Part shown: positions 17,520 to 26,400 of the stretch, piece after piece
Position numbering within the stretch: position 1 is the stretch's first letter
Layout: the number at the start of each line of letters is the position of its first letter
Origin: Cytophagales bacterium
GTDB lineage: Bacteria > Bacteroidota > Bacteroidia > Cytophagales > 172606-1
Length of the DNA stretch: 64,000 nucleotides
Direction of reading: 5' to 3'
Assembly (NCBI GenBank): GCA_030446715.1
Contig: JAUJMU010000009.1
Coordinates: forward strand, 1 to 64,000
Made by a program: the position numbers and the translations under genes
The notes under the pieces: generated by a model
The model's input: the letters and a program-made list of their open reading frames with translations, nothing else
Databases searched by the model: none
Told to the model about the DNA's origin: nothing

Positions 17520-18752
17520 TCACAGGACGGTTACTCTCCTTTCCTCCATTCTGAACTTAACCCCGCCGGTGAGTTCCAGCATTTTCAGCACTTGCGACAG
17601 GTTGGTATTGCGGGAGATTAAACCACTGAAATGCCTGTCTGGAATTTTTCCCTCAAAAGCGATTTCTACGTCGTACCAGCGCTCCAATTGCCGCATAACC
17701 GACTGTAAATCGGAGTCATTAAACTGAAACAGGCCCTTTTGCCACGCGGTTACTTCCTCAGTATCTACCCGGATGATTTCAATGCCCGCGCTGACTCTGC
17801 CCTGATGCCCGGGGCTTATCATCCGGCTGTCGGTTCCCGTACTCACCTTCACGGAGCCTTCCAGCAGCGTGGTGTTGACGGATGATTCATTGGCGTAGGC
17901 CATTACATTAAATTCCGTACCCAGCACCTCTACGCGTACCTTTCCGGCCTGTACCACAAAGGGCATTTGCCCGTTCTTAGCTATTTCGAAGTAAGCTTCT
18001 CCGCTTAACTCTACCCCGCGCTGAATGCCGCTGAAAGCAGTCGGGAAACGCAGGGAAGACCCGGCATTCAGCGTTACTCTGCTGCCGTCGGGCAGGATTA
18101 CCTGGTACTGGCCGCCTTTTGGGGTAATTACTTTATTGAAGCCAACGGGTTGGGTAGTTGCTACAGGGTTGGCCTGGTAGACGAGTTGCCCGTTTTGATT
18201 GGTGATTACTGCCCCGCCCTCCGCTCTTACCGCCCCGGCCCAAAACTGCTCCAACAGCAGGGTAGACCCGTCGGCTAATTCCAGGCGGGCTTTGTTTCTG
18301 CCCGGAGAAACATCAGTTTGACGCTTCGGCAGGCTCCTTTTCTGGGCAATGGAGGATGGCTTCCCAGGACCGGGCTGGTATGAAACCAGCAAGCCAATGC
18401 TCAGAACCAATACAGTGACCGCCGCGTATTTCCAGTGGAGAAGTCTATTCCCGAGTTTTATCTCCTTTTTCTGCTCTGTTTGCTCCGCTACTTTTTGCCA
18501 TGCCGCGGTGACATTCAGGGAAGCGTGGAACTCCAGTTCCCTGACAAAAGCGGTTTCGTCGTCAAGGGATTCTAAAAAAAGGCGGGCCCGCTCATCCTGC
18601 GCAAGCCAATGGCGAAGTTCATCTGCTTCCGCTGCACTCAAATCTCCCCGGAGGTATTTGAGTACCAGGTCAGCCTTCTCGTAGATGTGTTGATGCAAGT
18701 TGATTCTGGGTTGACGCCATAAAGACACGCTGCCGGTAAAAACGGGTGACAA
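17520..18752 (-). CDS. FecR-family anti-sigma factor / signal transducer
   Basis: About 410 aa. Inner-membrane regulator that holds the ECF sigma factor and relays the STN-SusC signal. The cytoplasmic part (residues 24-100, LVLKYLRGDLSAAEADELRHWL) precedes one membrane helix at ~107-125 (WKYAAVTVLVLSIGLLVSY). The periplasmic FecR domain follows (LPDGSRVTLNAGSSLRFP, RGVELSGEAYFEIAKNG, VEVLGTEFNVMAY) and then the C-terminal DUF4974-like segment (FQFNDSDLQSVMRQLERWYDVEI). No ATG fits: the TTG at 18752, a GTG at 18728 or a TTG at 18698 are all possible starts. It sits between the sigma gene and its STN-SusC in the classic order. Confidence 0.88.
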   Translation of the reverse strand: MSPVFTGSVSLWRQPRINLHQHIYEKADLVLKYLRGDLSAAEADELRHWLAQDERARLFLESLDDETAFVRELEFHASLNVTAAWQKVAEQTEQKKEIKLGNRLLHWKYAAVTVLVLSIGLLVSYQPGPGKPSSIAQKRSLPKRQTDVSPGRNKARLELADGSTLLLEQFWAGAVRAEGGAVITNQNGQLVYQANPVATTQPVGFNKVITPKGGQYQVILPDGSRVTLNAGSSLRFPTAFSGIQRGVELSGEAYFEIAKNGQMPFVVQAGKVRVEVLGTEFNVMAYANESSVNTTLLEGSVKVSTGTDSRMISPGHQGRVSAGIEIIRVDTEEVTAWQKGLFQFNDSDLQSVMRQLERWYDVEIAFEGKIPDRHFSGLISRNTNLSQVLKMLELTGGVKFRMEERRVTVL

Positions 18753-18851
18753 GCAATGTGAATTTTTTTTTATTTTTTTGCACGTCCACCGCAGGCCGCT
18801 TGCTACAAATGGGTATTATACCATAGCCAACCCTGTTTAACCCTATAATTC

Positions 18852-19382
18852 TCAGAACATTTGCTCTATTACTATCAGGACCCCAAAAGCTGCCGGGTTT
18901 AACCTGAGGCGCAGTAATTGCAGCGCTCTTTGTTTGTGCGTCTTGATGGTGTTGATGGACAAGCCTAGCTCCTCGGCAATTTCCTGGTTCTTCATGCCCT
19001 CCAGGTATCCCATTCTCGATATTCGCCGGCAGCTTTCGGGCAGAGATTGAATGGCTTCGTATATCTCATCCACTACCTCAGACCGGATGATGGCATCGAG
19101 TACGTTCGCTTCTTCCAGCGGGCATGAGTCCTGATAATCGAGATATTGCTTAGCTACTTTCCTGTGGCGCAGGTAATTCAGACTGGCATTGCGAACGGTA
19201 GTGTACAGAAAGTTCTTAATGGCCATTTCGTAAGAGGCAACCGTATCTCTTTGGTTCCAGTACGTGATAAAAGCGTTTTGCGTAATGTCTTCGGCGCTTG
19301 CTTGATCACCTATTATCTGGAAGGAGAAATGACATATCCGAGGATAATACGTTTGAAATAACTCCTCAAAAGATTGATTCAC
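18852..19382 (-). CDS. ECF RNA polymerase sigma-70 factor (FecI-like)
   Basis: 176 aa with sigma region 2 (FEELFQTYYPRICHFSFQIIGDQASAEDITQNAFITYWNQ split across residues ~5-45) and region 4 (SLPESCRRISRMGYLEGMKNQEIAEELGLSINTIKTHKQRALQLL near the C-terminus). This is the Bacteroidota-specific branch that works with FecR proteins. It is the first gene of the minus-strand unit sigma-FecR-SusC-SusD-SusC-SusD and should direct transcription of that operon once the FecR partner is released. The ATG at 19382 gives the usual length for the family. Confidence 0.9.
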   Translation of the reverse strand: MNQSFEELFQTYYPRICHFSFQIIGDQASAEDITQNAFITYWNQRDTVASYEMAIKNFLYTTVRNASLNYLRHRKVAKQYLDYQDSCPLEEANVLDAIIRSEVVDEIYEAIQSLPESCRRISRMGYLEGMKNQEIAEELGLSINTIKTHKQRALQLLRLRLNPAAFGVLIVIEQMF

Positions 19383-20091
19383 AATGGGTAAAGGTTTATT
19401 CGTTAGGTATTGATTTATGGTTGGGTGACTGCGGAAAACGTATATAAAAAATAACTAATCATTCTCCTGAGGCCCCCGCTGCACTTGCACCAATGGATGC
19501 TCCGGATGGTAAAAAAGGAATGTACTCGTTCTCAGTATCAAATGACGTAGGTGTGCGATAGTGGTAGTGCGGGCAGTAAACAAATCGGTCAGCGGTGCAG
19601 TGCTTCTAAGCTTTTCAACGGCTTGAATTCATCCTGAATCGTGCGGACTTTGCTGCTGCTGGTTTCACTTGTTTCCGGATCCTGATATTAATTTACGTAT
19701 TTTTTATATTACTTAATGCAGAGTTAATTAAATTTTTGACTATTTCGAAAACGTCTCCTCCCGCAGTCTTCTTCCCGGAACTTCGTATTGTACGACAATG
19801 GCTGCTTTTCACTACGAAGGCCTTTCCTGGCAATCAAAAAGCGAAAGCCCGGTAAGAAGGCGCTTGTTTCCCTTAAAAGATTTCAATAATTTCCTGGTCA
19901 GGTGCTGCCTGGCGCGTGGCAACTACGCTTGCCAACCAATACTCAAACTTTTCCTTCACGCTTGCCCAACTTCCAAAGCTGGTTTTTCCGCACTTAGAAT
20001 GAAAAAAGCATCTCGTTCGCTACCCGGAAAATCCAAAGTTCCGGAGATACTTGTTTTAGATTTTTCCCTGCTGCCGGCCTGGAGGCAGCCA
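19383..20091. other. Gene-poor stretch upstream of the sigma gene
   Basis: About 700 bases without a convincing gene. Open frames here (for example 19798-20121 on the plus strand) show no recognisable domain, have a composition unlike the neighbours and run into the relic downstream. The region should contain the promoter of the sigma-FecR operon. I see no tRNA, clear promoter pair or repeat in it. Confidence 0.4.
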
Positions 20092-20092
20092 C

Positions 20093-20130
20093 CGCCCGAT
20101 GACCGGATCAACGCCCGATGACCGGATCAA
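20093..20130. repeat. Perfect 19-bp tandem duplication
   Basis: CGCCCGATGACCGGATCAA occurs at 20093-20111 and again at 20112-20130 with no gap. The unit length is not a multiple of three, and in the frame of the adjacent relic the duplication creates a TGA at 20119. It borders the left end of the dehydrogenase relic and probably reflects slippage after the gene decayed. Confidence 0.85.
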
Positions 20131-20133
20131 AAG

Positions 20134-20342
20134 GATGGCCCCTTGGCAGCCGACCCCATCGGAATCGACATCGACGACAAGGGACACTTGTTTTACACCC
20201 GCACCAACCGGCAGAAGAATTCGGAATTTGACATTCGCGGGCACCAGAACTGGGCAATTCCCTCCATTGCCCTGCAAACGGTGGGAGACAAGCGGGCCTT
20301 CCTCCGCAAGGTGCTATCTCCCGAAAACAGTGCCAAGAACGA
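20134..20342 (+). pseudogene. Relic of a heme-binding/membrane-bound dehydrogenase-type gene, left part
   Basis: The frame reads PLAADPIGIDIDDKGHLFYTR, then RQKNSEFDIRGHQNW, then KRAFLRKVLSPENSAKNE. This is characteristic of the large PVC-type, often c-heme-bearing, secreted dehydrogenase/beta-propeller proteins found in Bacteroidota and Planctomycetes. Both the beginning and the end of the gene are missing. After SAKNE the sequence diverges, and the next expected residues (NEWLADVNRDGSHDWRDMTVE) are found about 1 kb away in the same frame and strand at 21361. The gene was therefore interrupted by inserted DNA. No function is expected. Confidence 0.7.
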
Positions 20343-21365
20343 ACCAAGCCCACACGCAGCCGAGGCCTCCCGGGTTGGCAATGCGCTAAAGCGGCCCGGT
20401 GGTCGTTAGTGGGCGGTGTTGTAAGCCGTTCTTTACTCTACTTTTTCTTTTTCATAATTTCATGCAGCGCTGGTTCTATAGCTACTGCATGAGCTCCTCC
20501 AAATACCACCAATACCCTGTCATAAGTGGTAAGCGCTTGTTCAATCTTGTCAAGTAAACCAATGTCGCGGACCACCTTGGAGCTTCTGCCAATCCGAGTA
20601 AGTTCACCTCCGTCATTGAGGAAGTAAAACTTTTCCGTGGGAATGGTCTTAATATTAAAAGGCTCTTTGAAATACTCCTGGTAAGCTTCCTTGATGAAGG
20701 AGAACTGCTTTTCTTCTTCCCGCAGCGCTACTGCATTCCTTTGTAGGTAATCCACAAACTCTTTTTGGTAAGATTTCTCCAGTCCAGCAGTGGTATCAAT
20801 CCAATTATGAATATACAGATCCAAGAAACGTTCATGGGCCAGATACAGCAATACATTTTTTCTGCCATGCTTTTCAAATAAGGCTTGTACTTCACTGGCT
20901 ACGTCTAAATCCCCGTCCAGCATTTTGATTCCAATACTATCGCATAAGTATTTCAACTGCCCTGTTTCTCCATTTTTGCTTATTGCTTCATTGCGACTGG
21001 CATAGGTTTTTGTATCTGTCCCCCCTTCATTGAAAGCAATCTGAGGTGGGAGCCTTCTAAAAGCACGGTCAATGCTATCTGCTTGAGGGGTGATTTCCCG
21101 GGTATGAGCCGTCCCGATGAAGGTTAAGTGTTTATTGCCTTCGCTGATCCGAATGATATAAGGGGACTTACTTACGCCTGTTACCTTAAATTCTTCGTCC
21201 GCTTTTCGCCAAAAATCTGCTACCCACAGGTAATCTCTCATGGTATAGGCATCAATACCCTGCCTTTTTGGGGGATTACGGCAGGCAGACATTACCAATG
21301 TTACTGATAGAATACCTATTAAGATGACTCGTCTCATTTGGTCTCTTTTCAATGGCTTACAACGA
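20338..21365. mobile_element. ~1,018-bp insert flanked by 5-bp direct repeats, no transposase
   Basis: The insert (20343-21360) splits the dehydrogenase relic. AACGA stands at 20338-20342 and again at 21361-21365, exactly where the protein sequence resumes, as a target-site duplication would. The insert is visibly more AT-rich than the surroundings and carries a single gene, a TraB/GumN-like lipoprotein on the minus strand. It has no transposase and no clear terminal inverted repeats; only a short AAGCC is shared near the two ends in inverted orientation. It could be a passenger moved in trans, or a recombination product that happens to resemble a transposition. Confidence 0.5.
20438..21337 (-). 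CDS. TraB/GumN-like lipoprotein
   Basis: 299 aa from the ATG at 21337, which gives a lipoprotein signal with lipobox VMSAC (Cys19); the frame is open further upstream but only into the relic. The pattern resembles the TraB/GumN (Tiki-like) family: an early strand with LTFIGTAHTRE (GTAH at ~75-78), a central AFNEGG, and a late strand VLVVFGGAHAVAIEPAL (GGAH at ~280-283). The two His motifs and the Glu are the family's presumed metal-dependent active site. Known relatives are membrane or periplasmic proteins of unclear or protease-like function. The gene is AT-rich compared with its neighbours and sits inside the inserted segment, so it was probably acquired. The family call is tentative. Confidence 0.65.
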   Translation of the reverse strand: MRRVILIGILSVTLVMSACRNPPKRQGIDAYTMRDYLWVADFWRKADEEFKVTGVSKSPYIIRISEGNKHLTFIGTAHTREITPQADSIDRAFRRLPPQIAFNEGGTDTKTYASRNEAISKNGETGQLKYLCDSIGIKMLDGDLDVASEVQALFEKHGRKNVLLYLAHERFLDLYIHNWIDTTAGLEKSYQKEFVDYLQRNAVALREEEKQFSFIKEAYQEYFKEPFNIKTIPTEKFYFLNDGGELTRIGRSSKVVRDIGLLDKIEQALTTYDRVLVVFGGAHAVAIEPALHEIMKKKK

Positions 21366-21423
21366 GTGGCTGGCCGACGTGAACAGGGACGGCTCCCACG
21401 ACTGGCGCGACATGACCGTGGAA
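21361..21423 (+). pseudogene. Relic of the dehydrogenase-type gene, right part
   Basis: Encodes NEWLADVNRDGSHDWRDMTV, then Glu, in the same frame as the left part at 20134-20342. This is the segment expected to follow SPENSAKN in that family. After Glu the family similarity ends and a TGA follows a few codons later. The 5-bp AACGA at its start repeats the end of the left part. Confidence 0.65.
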
Positions 21424-21577
21424 ATAAACTACTGATAGTCACCAATATAAGAGTAGCTGTTTTACGCAAAAACGCGGTTTTCAGCGTTATTCCTGAGAAA
21501 ACTGCAATCGCATAAAGCGCAAATTGCTGGTTTACAAGCGATTATTTTGCAAAAAGTCTACTATTCAATAGAATTTA

Positions 21578-22195
21578 TCAGAATACACTACAAGCACTAC
21601 CGGTAATCACGATGGAAAGCTTGATGACAGTTTTCAACGCCTCGTTATTTTTTAACGCCTTGAATGCTTCGTGAATGTGATTCACCACAGATTGGTAATT
21701 AATGGACATGACTACCGCAATTTCCTCATAACTTAAGTCCTTGTAACATCTTAAGTAAACGGCTTCTCTTTGCCGGGCCGTAAGGTCGTTTAAGGCGGCA
21801 GCTACCTGGGTGCTTTTCTGCCAGCCCTTTTCTTCCCGAATGAGTAAGTCTTCCGCCGAAAACGTAATGGCAGGTTCTGACAAGGCTAAGTCCTTTCTGA
21901 TCAAGGCGCGTCTTTTACCCCTGGAAAGTTTAGTAAGCACGTTTTTGCGCAATGCCTGTAGCAAATAGGCTTTTACGTACTGAACTGCTCCCAGTTTTCC
22001 TTTATTCTCCCACAGATGGAGAAACAACTCCTGAATACAGTCCTTTACAAAATCCTCATCACCGCTGATTTTCAAGCCGTAGTTATACAAGTAATTGAAA
22101 TACTTGCAGTAGACGCACGAAAGTGCCTGCTCGTTGCCAAGCGTAAAAGATCGCCAAAGCTCCTTATCCTCTTTGTCCGCATCCATTTTGTTCAT
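21578..22195 (-). CDS. ECF RNA polymerase sigma-70 factor
   Basis: 205 aa sigma factor. Region 2 lies at about residues 20-85 (CVYCKYFNYLYNYGLKISGD, CIQELFLHLWENK). Region 4 lies at ~130-185 (LNDLTARQREAVYLRCYKDL followed by SYEEIAVVMSINYQSVVNHIHEAFKAL). It is divergently transcribed from the FecR gene that begins at ~22384; the usual arrangement is sigma immediately upstream of and co-directional with FecR. The shared 190-bp intergenic region holds a 20-bp perfect palindrome. It probably controls the 22.4-34.2 kb plus-strand SusC/D block. The gene is AT-richer than the flanking Sus genes. Confidence 0.9.
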   Translation of the reverse strand: MNKMDADKEDKELWRSFTLGNEQALSCVYCKYFNYLYNYGLKISGDEDFVKDCIQELFLHLWENKGKLGAVQYVKAYLLQALRKNVLTKLSRGKRRALIRKDLALSEPAITFSAEDLLIREEKGWQKSTQVAAALNDLTARQREAVYLRCYKDLSYEEIAVVMSINYQSVVNHIHEAFKALKNNEALKTVIKLSIVITGSACSVF

Positions 22196-22239
22196 ACCGC
22201 TGAGGGGGGTCGGGGGTTAGCAACGGGCAAGTTTATGCT

Positions 22240-22259
22240 AACTTAAATTAATTTAAGTT
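22240..22259. promoter_or_regulatory. 20-bp perfect palindrome in a divergent promoter region
   Basis: AACTTAAATTAATTTAAGTT is its own reverse complement. It lies 45 bp upstream of the sigma gene start and about 125-170 bp upstream of the FecR start, followed by an A/T-rich run. An operator for a dimeric regulator is plausible. Its AT content also makes a structural (bent or cruciform) role possible. Confidence 0.45.
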
Positions 22260-22383
22260 TTTAAAAAAAAGTTAATAAAAACCCAGTATAAAAAATAGCC
22301 TCGTGTTTCTATATCCTTGTCTTGGGGCAGGAAAAGATTCTTGGCAGAATATACACCCTTATTGCAGGCGTACTGATGCCTGA

Positions 22384-23472
22384 GTGACCAGGGCCAATTC
22401 ATTCACTACTAACCCTAACTGCTTACAAAAGGTGAATTACGAAAGCTACCGGGCAGAAGATTTTGCCGCAGATATCTCTTTCAGAAACTGGGTAAACCGC
22501 GCTGATGAAGAGGATCAATTGTTCTGGGATGAATGGGCTCTGAATCATCCCGGGAAAATTCCTCTCATGGAAGAGGCCGTTAGCATTGTCAGGATGACCA
22601 CTTTTAGCGGGAAGGCTTTAAGCCCGGACGAAATATGGTCTAACTGGCTGCAACTGGCACCCCGTCTGAGAAAGCAGGAAACGATCCGGCCAAAACAGGT
22701 ATTTTTCTCGTTGGACAGGCCTATGGCTTACGCCAGAATAGCCGCTGTCCTGGTGGGTTTTATACTCCTTAGTGCGGCAGTTGCCCTGTATATCAGTAAC
22801 CGAAAGGTAGTTTACCGCACCGGCTACGGAAGCACCTTGTCGGTTGTTTTGCCCGACAGTTCTACCGTGATTCTCAACGCCAACTCTGCCTTATCCTATA
22901 ACCCTGATTGGGAGGCTGACCAGAACCGGGCCGTGTGGCTACAGGGAGAAGCTTATTTCAGCGTCCGGAAAAAGAAAGATGCCCGGTCGCGTAGTCAGAA
23001 ATTTGTTGTGCACACCGACAACCTTAGTGTGGAAGTACTGGGTACCAGATTCAACGTGAATGACCGCGCCGGTACGACAGAAGTAGTGCTTGCCTCAGGT
23101 AAAGTGAAAGTAAGCAGCAAGCTGCCTGATCCGGCCCGGTCGCAGTCCCTGCTGATGGTACCGGGGGAAATGGTAGAATTTTCCGAAGCAAGCAAGGCGT
23201 TCCTTAAGCGAACAGTGAATACGGAAAGGTATACGGCCTGGAAGGGCAATAAACTGATTTTTGATAATACCCCGCTGCAGGAAGTAGTGGACATCCTAAC
23301 CCACACGTACGGGATGGAAGTACAAATTAAAAACAGAACACTGCTATCAAAAAAATTGACCGGTGAAATAGAGGTTAAAAAGGTAGAAGATCTGCTGGAG
23401 GCTTTATCCCAGATCTATGACCTTGCTATAATCCATAAAAACACTACCGTCATTATTGATTACAACCCGTAG
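22384..23472 (+). CDS. FecR-family anti-sigma factor / signal transducer
   Basis: Up to 362 aa. The cytoplasmic N-terminus (YRAEDFAADISFRNWV) is followed by one membrane helix at ~116-137 (YARIAAVLVGFILLSAAVAL), the FecR domain (LPDSSTVILNANSALSYNPD, RAVWLQGEAYFSV, VEVLGTRFNV) and the C-terminal segment (LIFDNTPLQEVVDILTHTYGM). Relatives usually begin a few residues before YRAEDF, so the GTG at 22432 (VNYESYRAEDF) is a strong alternative start to the GTG at 22384. It precedes an STN-SusC by 23 bp, its expected signalling partner, and is divergent from the sigma factor at 21578-22195. Confidence 0.88.
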   Translation: MTRANSFTTNPNCLQKVNYESYRAEDFAADISFRNWVNRADEEDQLFWDEWALNHPGKIPLMEEAVSIVRMTTFSGKALSPDEIWSNWLQLAPRLRKQETIRPKQVFFSLDRPMAYARIAAVLVGFILLSAAVALYISNRKVVYRTGYGSTLSVVLPDSSTVILNANSALSYNPDWEADQNRAVWLQGEAYFSVRKKKDARSRSQKFVVHTDNLSVEVLGTRFNVNDRAGTTEVVLASGKVKVSSKLPDPARSQSLLMVPGEMVEFSEASKAFLKRTVNTERYTAWKGNKLIFDNTPLQEVVDILTHTYGMEVQIKNRTLLSKKLTGEIEVKKVEDLLEALSQIYDLAIIHKNTTVIIDYNP

Positions 23473-23495
23473 CCTTTCCCAAAACCACTACCAGT

Positions 23496-26400
23496 ATGCA
23501 CAAAAACACTACCCGCCTCAGCACTTGCCTGTTTTGGATAAGTCTATTGTTTTTACTAAACGGTCATTTTCAAATTGCTTATTCTCAGGTATTTGCCTCG
23601 CAGGCGGGGCACGCGTTACCGCAGCAGGAACCCTCTGCCCGTTCCGAAAAGCCGGCCCAGTTATTGACCGAGATTCTGAAACAGATCAAAACCACCCACG
23701 GGGTTACGTTCTTGTACGACCCTGAAGTAGTAGGAGACAAAAGGGCGACTATAAAACCGGAAAGATCCAAAAGGGTGGAAAAGATACTGGAAAAAATGTT
23801 GAGCCCTTACCGCCTGCATTTTAAGAAAATCAATGAAACGACTTATTCAATTTTTCCCGGTAAGAATGCTGTAAGTACCGCTGACCATACGAACCAATCA
23901 GCGCCTTATCCTGCTGTTGTAGATACTGCCGAAAACTACACAACCCGGGCGGTATTAGCAGTAACCGTCACGGGCAGAGTCACTTCCGATACGGGCGAAG
24001 GCATTCCGGGCGTGAACGTGTCGCTGAAAAAAACCACTATTGGCACCTCTACCGGCCCGGACGGAACATACAGCCTTTCGGTACAGGACGACCATGCGAA
24101 CGGTACACTGGTCTTTTCCTACATTGGCTACACCACTGAAGAGGTAATTATCAATGGCCGCTCCAAAATAGATGTTTCCCTGGAGCCCGACATAAAATCC
24201 CTGCAAGAAGTAGTGGTAGTAGGGTACGGTGAACAGGCAAAGCGGGAAGTGACCGGTTCAATCGCTACCGTGAAGGCCCAGGAAATCGAGAAGTCGGTAG
24301 TGACCAGCTTTCAGAGTGCCATGCAGGGCAGAATGCCGGGCGTGGAAATTGCCGAATCCAGCGGGGTGCCGGGCGCTGCCGTGCAGGTAAGGGTAAGGGG
24401 ACTGGGAACCATTAACGGGGGTGCCGGCCCTCTCTATGTAGTAGACGGGGTGCCCATCCTTTCCGGCCACCGGGGAGACGGAGATACCCCCATCAGTACC
24501 AGCGACATAGGGACTTCCAATAATCCTTTAACGGACTTAAACCCCAATGATATTGAGTCCATTGAAGTGCTGAAGGACGCCGCCGCCGGCGCTATTTACG
24601 GGGCCCGGGCGGCGGGCGGCGTGGTATTGATTACCACCAAGCGCGGCAAAGCCGGTAAGACGAGCTTTAACGTAAGGGTCTATACCGGCGTGAGTGAAAT
24701 AGCCAACCAAAGGAGCCTGCTGAACGGTCCGCAACTGCTGGAAATAGCGGACGAAGCCTGGCGCAATACTTTTTACAGTAATCCTGCCTCAGTTGGACTA
24801 CCCCTTCCGGCAACCCCGATACCAGCTATTCCAAACTTTGACCGGGGCCGGGCTGACACCACCAACATCAACCACCTGGATAATGTATTGCGCCGGGGCA
24901 GCACCAGCGAAGTAAGCCTGTCAGCCAGCAACGGCACGGATAAAGCCGCTTTCTACATCAACGGAACCTACCGGAAAACCCAGGGTACCATGCGGGGCAA
25001 CGATTTTGATTACGTAGGCTTCCGGCTGAACGTGGATTATAACCTGACCAAGGCGCTCAAGTTCGGAGCCAATATCAGTCCTTCCTATACCTACGAGAAA
25101 AGACTAGGATCGGGCAGTAATATCACAACCGGCGGATTCGGCGGCGCTACCACCGCTAATCTGCCTATCTACCCGGTATATAATCAGGACGGCACGTATT
25201 TTAATCCGTGGTTCAACCCGGTGGCTTTTCTGGACCGGGATATTTATGCCAATAACCAGAAAAAAATCCGCATCCTGGCTACGCTGTTTTTTGAAGCAAC
25301 GATCCTGCCCGGTTTAAAATTCCGGTCCACGGCCAACGTGGAAACCTATAATCAGACCAGCGATGTGTACCAGTCGGGCCTCATACGGGTCAGGGGCAAT
25401 ACCGATGCGAGTCCTTTCGCCGATGACCAACTCGCCAGGGGCGTACTGCAACGGTACGTGGGCTATAATTATCTTACCGAAAACTTTTTCAATTACACCA
25501 AAGTATTGCGGGAACACCACAGCGTATCGGTGGTAGCCGGCATGCGGTTTCAGAAGCTCGATACGCAGTATGAATCCATGGTGGGGGAGTCTTTCGCCAA
25601 CAGCAGTTTAAGGTATCCTTCGCAGGCCGCTTTTGTGGAAGACCGGCCGCAGACGCAATTGAGAGATAACACCGCTTTACTGGGGTATTTCTTCCGGTCA
25701 AATTATACCCTCAAAGACCGGTACCTCTTTGGCTTTACCATTAATTCCGATGGCAGCTCCCGGTTCGGGAAGAACAAGAAATTCGGCACTTTCCCGGCCG
25801 TTTCAGCCGGCTGGATTCTCTCCGAGGAGAACTTTCTCAACAAGAGCCGCTTTTTAGGTTTTTTAAAGATCCGGGGCAGCATTGGGTTGACGGGTAACTC
25901 ATCGGGAATCGGCAATTTTCCGGGGGCATCCACCTGGACGTTCTTCGGGGCTTCCTCTTCTTCTTATAAAGGAGACCCGTTCATTGTGCCCAGCACCTCC
26001 CAAAATGCCGATCTGCACTGGGAGAGAGGCGAAAAAATGGATGCCGGCCTGGATTTTGGGCTGCTGGAAAACCGGATTTCGGGTACGGTGGACGTGTTCA
26101 GGAACACTACCCGGGAGATGCTGCTGGCCATCCCGGCTCCCTTTAGTTTTGGCTACGCGGATAATAATTATCTGGAGAACCGGGGCGCGCTGAGAAATAC
26201 CGGAATCGAGTTCTCTCTTACTTCCAATAACCTGACCGGGGCCTTTAAGTGGACGACCAACTTTAACATCAGCCATTACAAAACCAAAATACTAAGCCTG
26301 GGAGGCTTAACGCCGGGCCAGGTTACCGGCGGCAGCGGCGATGTCCGGACCTACGAGGGACAGTCGGCCCCCACCTTTTACTTGATTGAATGGGTGGGGG

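Follow-up and report, generated by a model that had tools for sequence, protein, structure and literature searches.

Among the described systems closest to the locus reported here are the Xer proteins, which resolve chromosome dimers, and the integrons with their integrase IntI. IntI is defined by its I2 domain, which is reported to be necessary for cassette capture and to be found in no other protein (PMC7790495), and integron detection software demands this domain (PMC9668308). For Bacteroidota, integrases without cassettes have been reported, along with a single complete integron, that of Salinibacter (PMC9024848). Insertion of cassettes by IntI1 at secondary genomic sites (attG) was described by Loot et al. 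(2024), as cited in PMC12901181 and PMC12444791, and secondary sites are also treated in PMC2426708.

Here we analyze an insert in a Cytophagales bacterium (GCA_030446715.1, genome G000; contig JAUJMU010000009.1, positions 1-64,000 of the forward strand); "the window" denotes this whole stretch of 64,000 nt. The system to which the insert belongs resembles IntI integrons, including chromosomal integrons and integrase-less arrays (CALINs), in the R''-L''-L'-R' layout of its attC sites, crossover at G|TT, single-gene cassettes in same-strand arrays, cassette starts complementary to the start of their own attC, and a site beside the recombinase where the first cassette begins. By contrast, the recombinase lacks the I2 insert, carries HARP-like repeats, and is transcribed towards the array, sometimes followed by a gene for a single-strand-binding protein (SSB). 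Cassette anatomy, an empty site, the same cassette elsewhere, arrays, a recombinase with an attI-like site at the array heads and the lack of I2 are all directly observed. Because the system resembles an integron in all that was tested except the defining feature of the integrase, we treat it as an integron-like variant rather than classing it with the IntI integrons.

The interrupted gene and its insert

The window contains the relic of a gene for a PVC-type heme-binding / DUF7133 protein in two parts (Table 1). Its frame reads ...SPENSAKNE to 20342 and then NEWLADVNRDGSHDW from 21361, with strand and frame unchanged. The joined relic, used as a query, retrieved uninterrupted homologues from 10 relatives, which are 58-92% identical and have open frames 805-1,183 aa long, and an intact paralogue within G000 itself (contig C23, 80%), with the window's own two pieces matched at 98% and 93%. 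Since the intact paralogue has HEAT repeats and belongs to the PVC-type heme-binding CxxCH / DUF7133 proteins, the "dehydrogenase" of a preliminary description of this locus is acceptable as a loose name. An empty site was found in genome G001 (87% DNA identity), where the left flank stops at 947 and the right flank starts at 943; the overlap of the flanks is exactly AACGA, a single copy there as against two in the window. The preliminary description had reported a relic split in one strand and frame, AACGA at both boundaries and an AT-rich insert, and all of these are borne out: the homologues of the joined relic and the empty site support the split, both copies of AACGA are in place, and GC content is ~0.40-0.45 within the insert vs. 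0.51-0.57 in the left flank. In the uninterrupted homologues the two halves are adjacent, with a single AACGA.

Table 1. Features of the interrupted gene and of the cassette in the window.
Feature	Position	Strand	Basis
Gene relic (PVC-type heme-binding / DUF7133), left part	20134..20342	+	frame, homologues, empty site, intact paralogue
Gene relic (PVC-type heme-binding / DUF7133), right part	21361..21434	+	frame, homologues, empty site
Gene cassette, bounded by G|TT crossover points	20340..21362 (~1,023 bp)	-	sequence, G001 empty site, cassette rule, same cassette in G002
Cassette gene, putative lipoprotein, weakly TraB/PrgY/GumN-like, about 300 aa (299-300)	20438..21337	-	profile search
Cassette start G|TTGTAAGCC, exact reverse complement of attC start	21354..21363	-	sequence, cassette rule
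attC: R'' GGCTTACAAC, L'' GCCCAC, L' GTGGGC, core TTCG|TT	20338..20427 (90 nt)	-	attC model 82.9 bits, folds
AACGA copy 1, TCG|TT core, attC end joined to target	20338..20342	.	sequence, empty site
AACGA copy 2, TCG|TT core, target joined to cassette start	21361..21365	.	sequence, empty site

Read on the minus strand, the insert consists of G|TTGTAAGCC, the lipoprotein gene and GGCTTACAACACCGCCCAC...GTGGGCTTGGTTCG|TT, and a stretch of 10 nt at its start is the exact reverse complement of the attC start, as is the case for integron cassettes. It contains a 10-bp inverted repeat (GGCTTACAAC/GTTGTAAGCC), and its attC is a copy of a multicopy palindromic site, both of which had been missed. The lipoprotein gene, previously given as a TraB/GumN-like gene carried alone, is indeed the sole gene of the insert, with a TraB/PrgY/GumN likeness under the Pfam cut-off (E 0.019). 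There is no transposase inside, as had been noted, and an Rfam search of 18000-24000 gave zero matches. The insert has no recombinase of its own and the same unit occurs elsewhere with the same ends (in G002, see below), which supports the earlier proposal of a single-gene cargo unit mobilized in trans. That the insert is an integron-type gene cassette is near certain.

attC sites and copies of the cassette

A search of the insert against its own genome returned a diverged TraB paralogue, together with short matches limited to the first ~110 bases of the insert, which form one family of ~90-nt palindromic sites of the form nnnTAACACC...CGTTATnG. A covariance model of attC was built from 27 other sites, leaving out the window copy; it found the window site as its only match in 64 kb, and 98 sites across G000, many of them in same-strand arrays on contigs C25, C7, C4, C2, C5, and C13, although the structure of the model is modest (13 pairs) and its score derives mostly from sequence. 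The features expected of attC are present, namely RYYYAAC and GTTRRRY cores, L boxes and a hairpin, and in its circular form the window attC folds into R and L stems with an asymmetric spacer. More generally, folding energies indicate that the attC sites are long imperfect hairpins of variable sequence with an asymmetric spacer (3 nt vs. 6-7 nt), and most sites of this family terminate in CG|TT. The cassette rule (own first 9 nt reverse-complemented upstream) holds at 58 of 110 attC sites from the window's family of genomes, compared with 4.45 on average and at most 7 with swapped 9-mers; the 52 of 110 sites at which the exact 9-mer match is absent may reflect decay, later rearrangement or site calls one base off. 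A crude, generic detector for attC did not separate strands and was dropped.

In the relative G002, a TraB cassette bounded by the same ends, TTGTAAGCCAT...GGCTTACAACACC (also given as TTGTAAGCCAT...AACGGCTTACAACACC), heads an array at an attI-like site, with a flank different from that in the window and with its gene broken. Because the whole cassette, searched by blastn against G002, G004, and contig C18 of G000, gave no matches at the settings used, the G002 correspondence rests on the protein match and the identical ends. The TraB paralogue within G000 (C18:430711-431595, L245) encodes a 73% identical protein and keeps a cassette-like leader, CCATTGAAAAGACG. It has no recognizable attC and was for this reason left out of the evidence; it is possibly a cassette that lost its attC.

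The recombinase at the heads of arrays

Canonical IntI was not found in the order: no match to the profile TIGR02249 exceeded its cut-off in any of 59 genomes, and the highest-scoring ones skip profile positions 180-239. A different recombinase stands beside same-strand cassette arrays in relatives of G000 and in other genera. In the IntI4 structure 2a3v, residues 184-247, which we take to be the location of the I2 helix, lie opposite 22 residues in this recombinase, the IntI-specific I2 insert being absent. Its catalytic residues are invariant and its core is XerA-like (NF040815), with 5hxy as the best PDB match and 4a8e also matched. The catalytic and core-binding domains are thus closest to XerA and archaeal Xer, from which the protein differs in its N-terminal HARP-like repeats and in the cassette arrays.

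These repeats number one to three and resemble, by profile, the HARP domain of SMARCAL1, although the recombinase has no SNF2 ATPase and the repeats are fused to a tyrosine recombinase. With the Pfam HARP profile (PF07443) the best value is 7.5e-7 and the G006 copy is over the gathering score, while E < 0.01 is reached in only 2 of 41 members; the profile of the HARP-like family itself has 4o66 (SMARCAL1 HARP) as its best PDB match (E 0.002). In the recombinase of Arundinibacter roseus, three bbabba repeats are predicted with pLDDT mostly >90. Structure searches gave no HARP entry among the matches listed, since the catalytic domain fills them; the HARP assignment accordingly draws on profiles and predicted repeats, and the match is weak for most members. 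Six loci (L128, L129, L131, L137, L140, and L142) have an SSB gene between the HARP recombinase and the first cassette, immediately after the former and in the same orientation.

The complete genome G004 has two attC arrays directly downstream of HARP recombinases, on the same strand, one recombinase being intact (596 aa) and the other split by a transposase gene. After the recombinase stop and ~170 bp comes GGTTTG|TTATGCCC, the start of cassette 1, whose attC starts GGGCATAAC, and the cassette rule holds likewise for cassettes 2 and 3. At the split gene (L120 11618-14167, contig C1 of G004) the array nevertheless stands. The G000 copy of the recombinase lies near the end of the 29,874-bp contig C1 and is followed by an attI-like AAACGACATATGTCGTTTATTCAAATG|TT; this contig stops before any array, and a run of N lies inside the gene, so that for G000 the link between recombinase and arrays is drawn by homology to G004. 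Just upstream of this gene is a separate frame with two HARP-like repeats and no catalytic domain (L021 12603-13316; G000 C1:26602-27315).

A scan of named genomes yielded 80 related recombinases. Using an independent chain test (a start 9-mer, its own reverse complement later, the next GTT, and L-box complementarity), we found chains of 5-9 cassettes behind the recombinases of A. roseus, Winogradskyella ursingii, Algibacter onchidii, Flavobacterium enshiense, a Rufibacter, and others, vs. a maximum of 2 in controls (shuffles and upstream regions). When 16 regions in 15 complete or nearly complete genomes were picked by the HARP-like module alone, 8 had chains of at least three and 2 more had a pair of cassettes immediately after an attI-like site (shuffle maxima 1-3). 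Where at least 2 kb of downstream sequence was available, chains of at least two followed 39 of 50 HARP recombinases vs. 2 of 20 non-HARP recombinases (p = 1.8e-7, which is indicative since related sequences are not independent), and chains of at least three followed 28 of 50 vs. 1 of 20; the remaining 11 of the 50 HARP recombinases have no downstream chain. In this count L276 and L280, in which the recombinase frame is broken, were taken as HARP by module match, and L119 and L120 by attC model matches. Classification with a narrower HARP profile, which missed members with the repeat in their N-termini (e.g., L157 and L196), gave chains of at least two in 24 of 31 vs. 5 of 23 (p = 8e-5).

The HARP-like module is present in 62 of 296 Bacteroidota genomes and 39 of 146 genera, counted as modules (mostly frames of 345-600 aa) and not as verified arrays. 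HARP recombinases are also present in Paenibacillaceae, Spirochaetota, and an archaeal MAG. Two of them belong to Saccharibacillus kuerlensis (L196), with three chained cassettes right behind an attI-like site, and to a Paenibacillus (L199); the one in the Candidatus Undinarchaeales MAG (L170) is cut by the contig end and may be contamination. On the recombinase tree the HARP label clusters (7 changes, 2 of them forced), a single clade not being established.

At 28 loci the 18 nt preceding the first G|TT are close to the motif TTGCGnwTATwAAnnnG, often preceded by an inverted repeat of its left half. In the window's family, the heads of orphan arrays are similar to one another and to G000's own site, ranking in the top 0-2% of random G|TT sites (leave-one-out). 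Five orphan arrays (L017, L125, L246, L247, and L258) open with a copy of this motif and have no recombinase beside them, as if attI-like sites had been scattered or had moved along with arrays. A contig end falls within 300 bp downstream of the recombinase in 13 of 66 HARP cases vs. 2 of 31 others, several of them at the attI-like site (L140, L151, L159, L181, L195, and others), as if array repeats break assemblies. Judging from gene order and sequence, it is likely that the HARP-XerA recombinase has a role in moving the cassettes.

Joining of the cassette and rival explanations

We propose that a site-specific tyrosine recombinase joined the cassette, via its attC, to a G|TT site outside any array and in a dispensable gene, and that the cassette comes from the system with about 100 attC sites in G000. 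The joining would be done by the XerA-like recombinase with HARP-like N-terminal repeats, not by IntI, and attC would be used as a folded single strand. HARP proteins bind junctions of single- and double-stranded DNA and displace RPA, a single-strand-binding protein (PMC4035279); by analogy, the repeats, with the neighboring SSB gene in some lineages, may help to form or hold attC hairpins on SSB-coated DNA. We are fairly confident of the reading as a whole, i.e., an integron-type cassette at a secondary site, with HARP-XerA rather than IntI as the likely recombinase.

The target sequence is CCACTCG|TTCTTGG. Because joining took place at G|TT, in a core common to attC and target, TCG|TT (AACGA on the plus strand) stands at both ends. 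The AACGA repeat is thus the shared core of a site-specific crossover, and repair of a staggered cut is not required. The 5-bp target duplication by transposition that had been suggested gives way to this recombination core, and the mechanism, then called unrecognized, falls into a recognizable class, that of secondary-site insertion of an integron-type cassette. An uninterrupted homologue and a G|TT crossover are both at hand, as such an insertion calls for. The window target, scored against the attI-like motif, showed no resemblance to it, and we therefore speak of a secondary site and do not claim attI targeting. As in attG insertion by IntI1, one cassette is joined at G|TT to a genomic site that is neither attI nor attC; the host here is by contrast a member of Bacteroidota without IntI, and the likeness is drawn via the citing papers, not via an attG consensus.

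It is possible, although rather unlikely, that the HARP recombinase drives the arrays but uses attC as ordinary double-stranded DNA, which would make this a Xer-type cassette system and not a single-strand integron. The XerA-like core, with 5hxy as its closest structure, is consistent with such a mode, as is the lack of the I2 helix, which in IntI handles extrahelical bases (PMC7790495). However, the long imperfect hairpins have been kept together with their asymmetric spacer and variable sequence, and HARP-like repeats with SSB neighbors fit the handling of single strands.

Less probable still is that the cassette and the orphan arrays are served by a classical IntI that acts in trans from a different cell or that the lineage has lost, with the HARP recombinase as a bystander. 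CALINs and their use by a foreign IntI in trans are known (PMC12444791; PMC9668308), and the attC sites here have the usual cores. Nevertheless, HARP recombinases stand at array heads with a conserved attI-like site in many genera (the 39 of 50 testable cases given above), and no IntI exceeded the cut-off among the 59 genomes. In addition, two genomes (G040 and G054) have the same first cassette, joined at GTTGGCGG, behind different recombinase-side flanks.

The earlier expectation that the unit would recur at other sites held for its ends, which are the same in G002, but not for the 5-bp duplication, as other insertions share only the G|TT core. A transposon- or MITE-like unit with such a duplication and a transposase in trans would fit the two copies of AACGA, the clean empty site and the lack of a transposase within the insert, but it is very improbable and was rejected on attC anatomy and the G|TT rule: one boundary falls in a site of the attC family, the inverted repeat is placed 80 nt inward of the attC end and is not found at both boundaries as in a transposon, 20 other cassette starts point to insertions with a common G|TT core and no duplication, and the CG|TT core of most attC sites accounts for the boundary repeat.

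The insert itself is not the clearest candidate for something undescribed, as it had been called, whereas the recombinase heading the arrays does look undescribed. The papers searched, which took in no preprints and only a minority of subscription journals, yielded no account of cassettes associated with a HARP recombinase, and the cassette system, large and spread across Bacteroidota, is apparently undescribed. We lean towards the view that it represents a second class of integron without IntI, in Bacteroidota and sparsely in other phyla, in which HARP-like repeats on a XerA-derived recombinase, with an SSB partner in some lineages, would have taken the role of I2 and so provided a second structural route to attC hairpins. 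Should HARP-XerA recombinases drive attC arrays in a considerable share of Bacteroidota, a major system of gene capture would have gone unnoticed or been classed among the integrase-less arrays. If true, this would also give a second solution with which to test how recombinases of the Xer type acquired the ability to handle folded single-stranded DNA.
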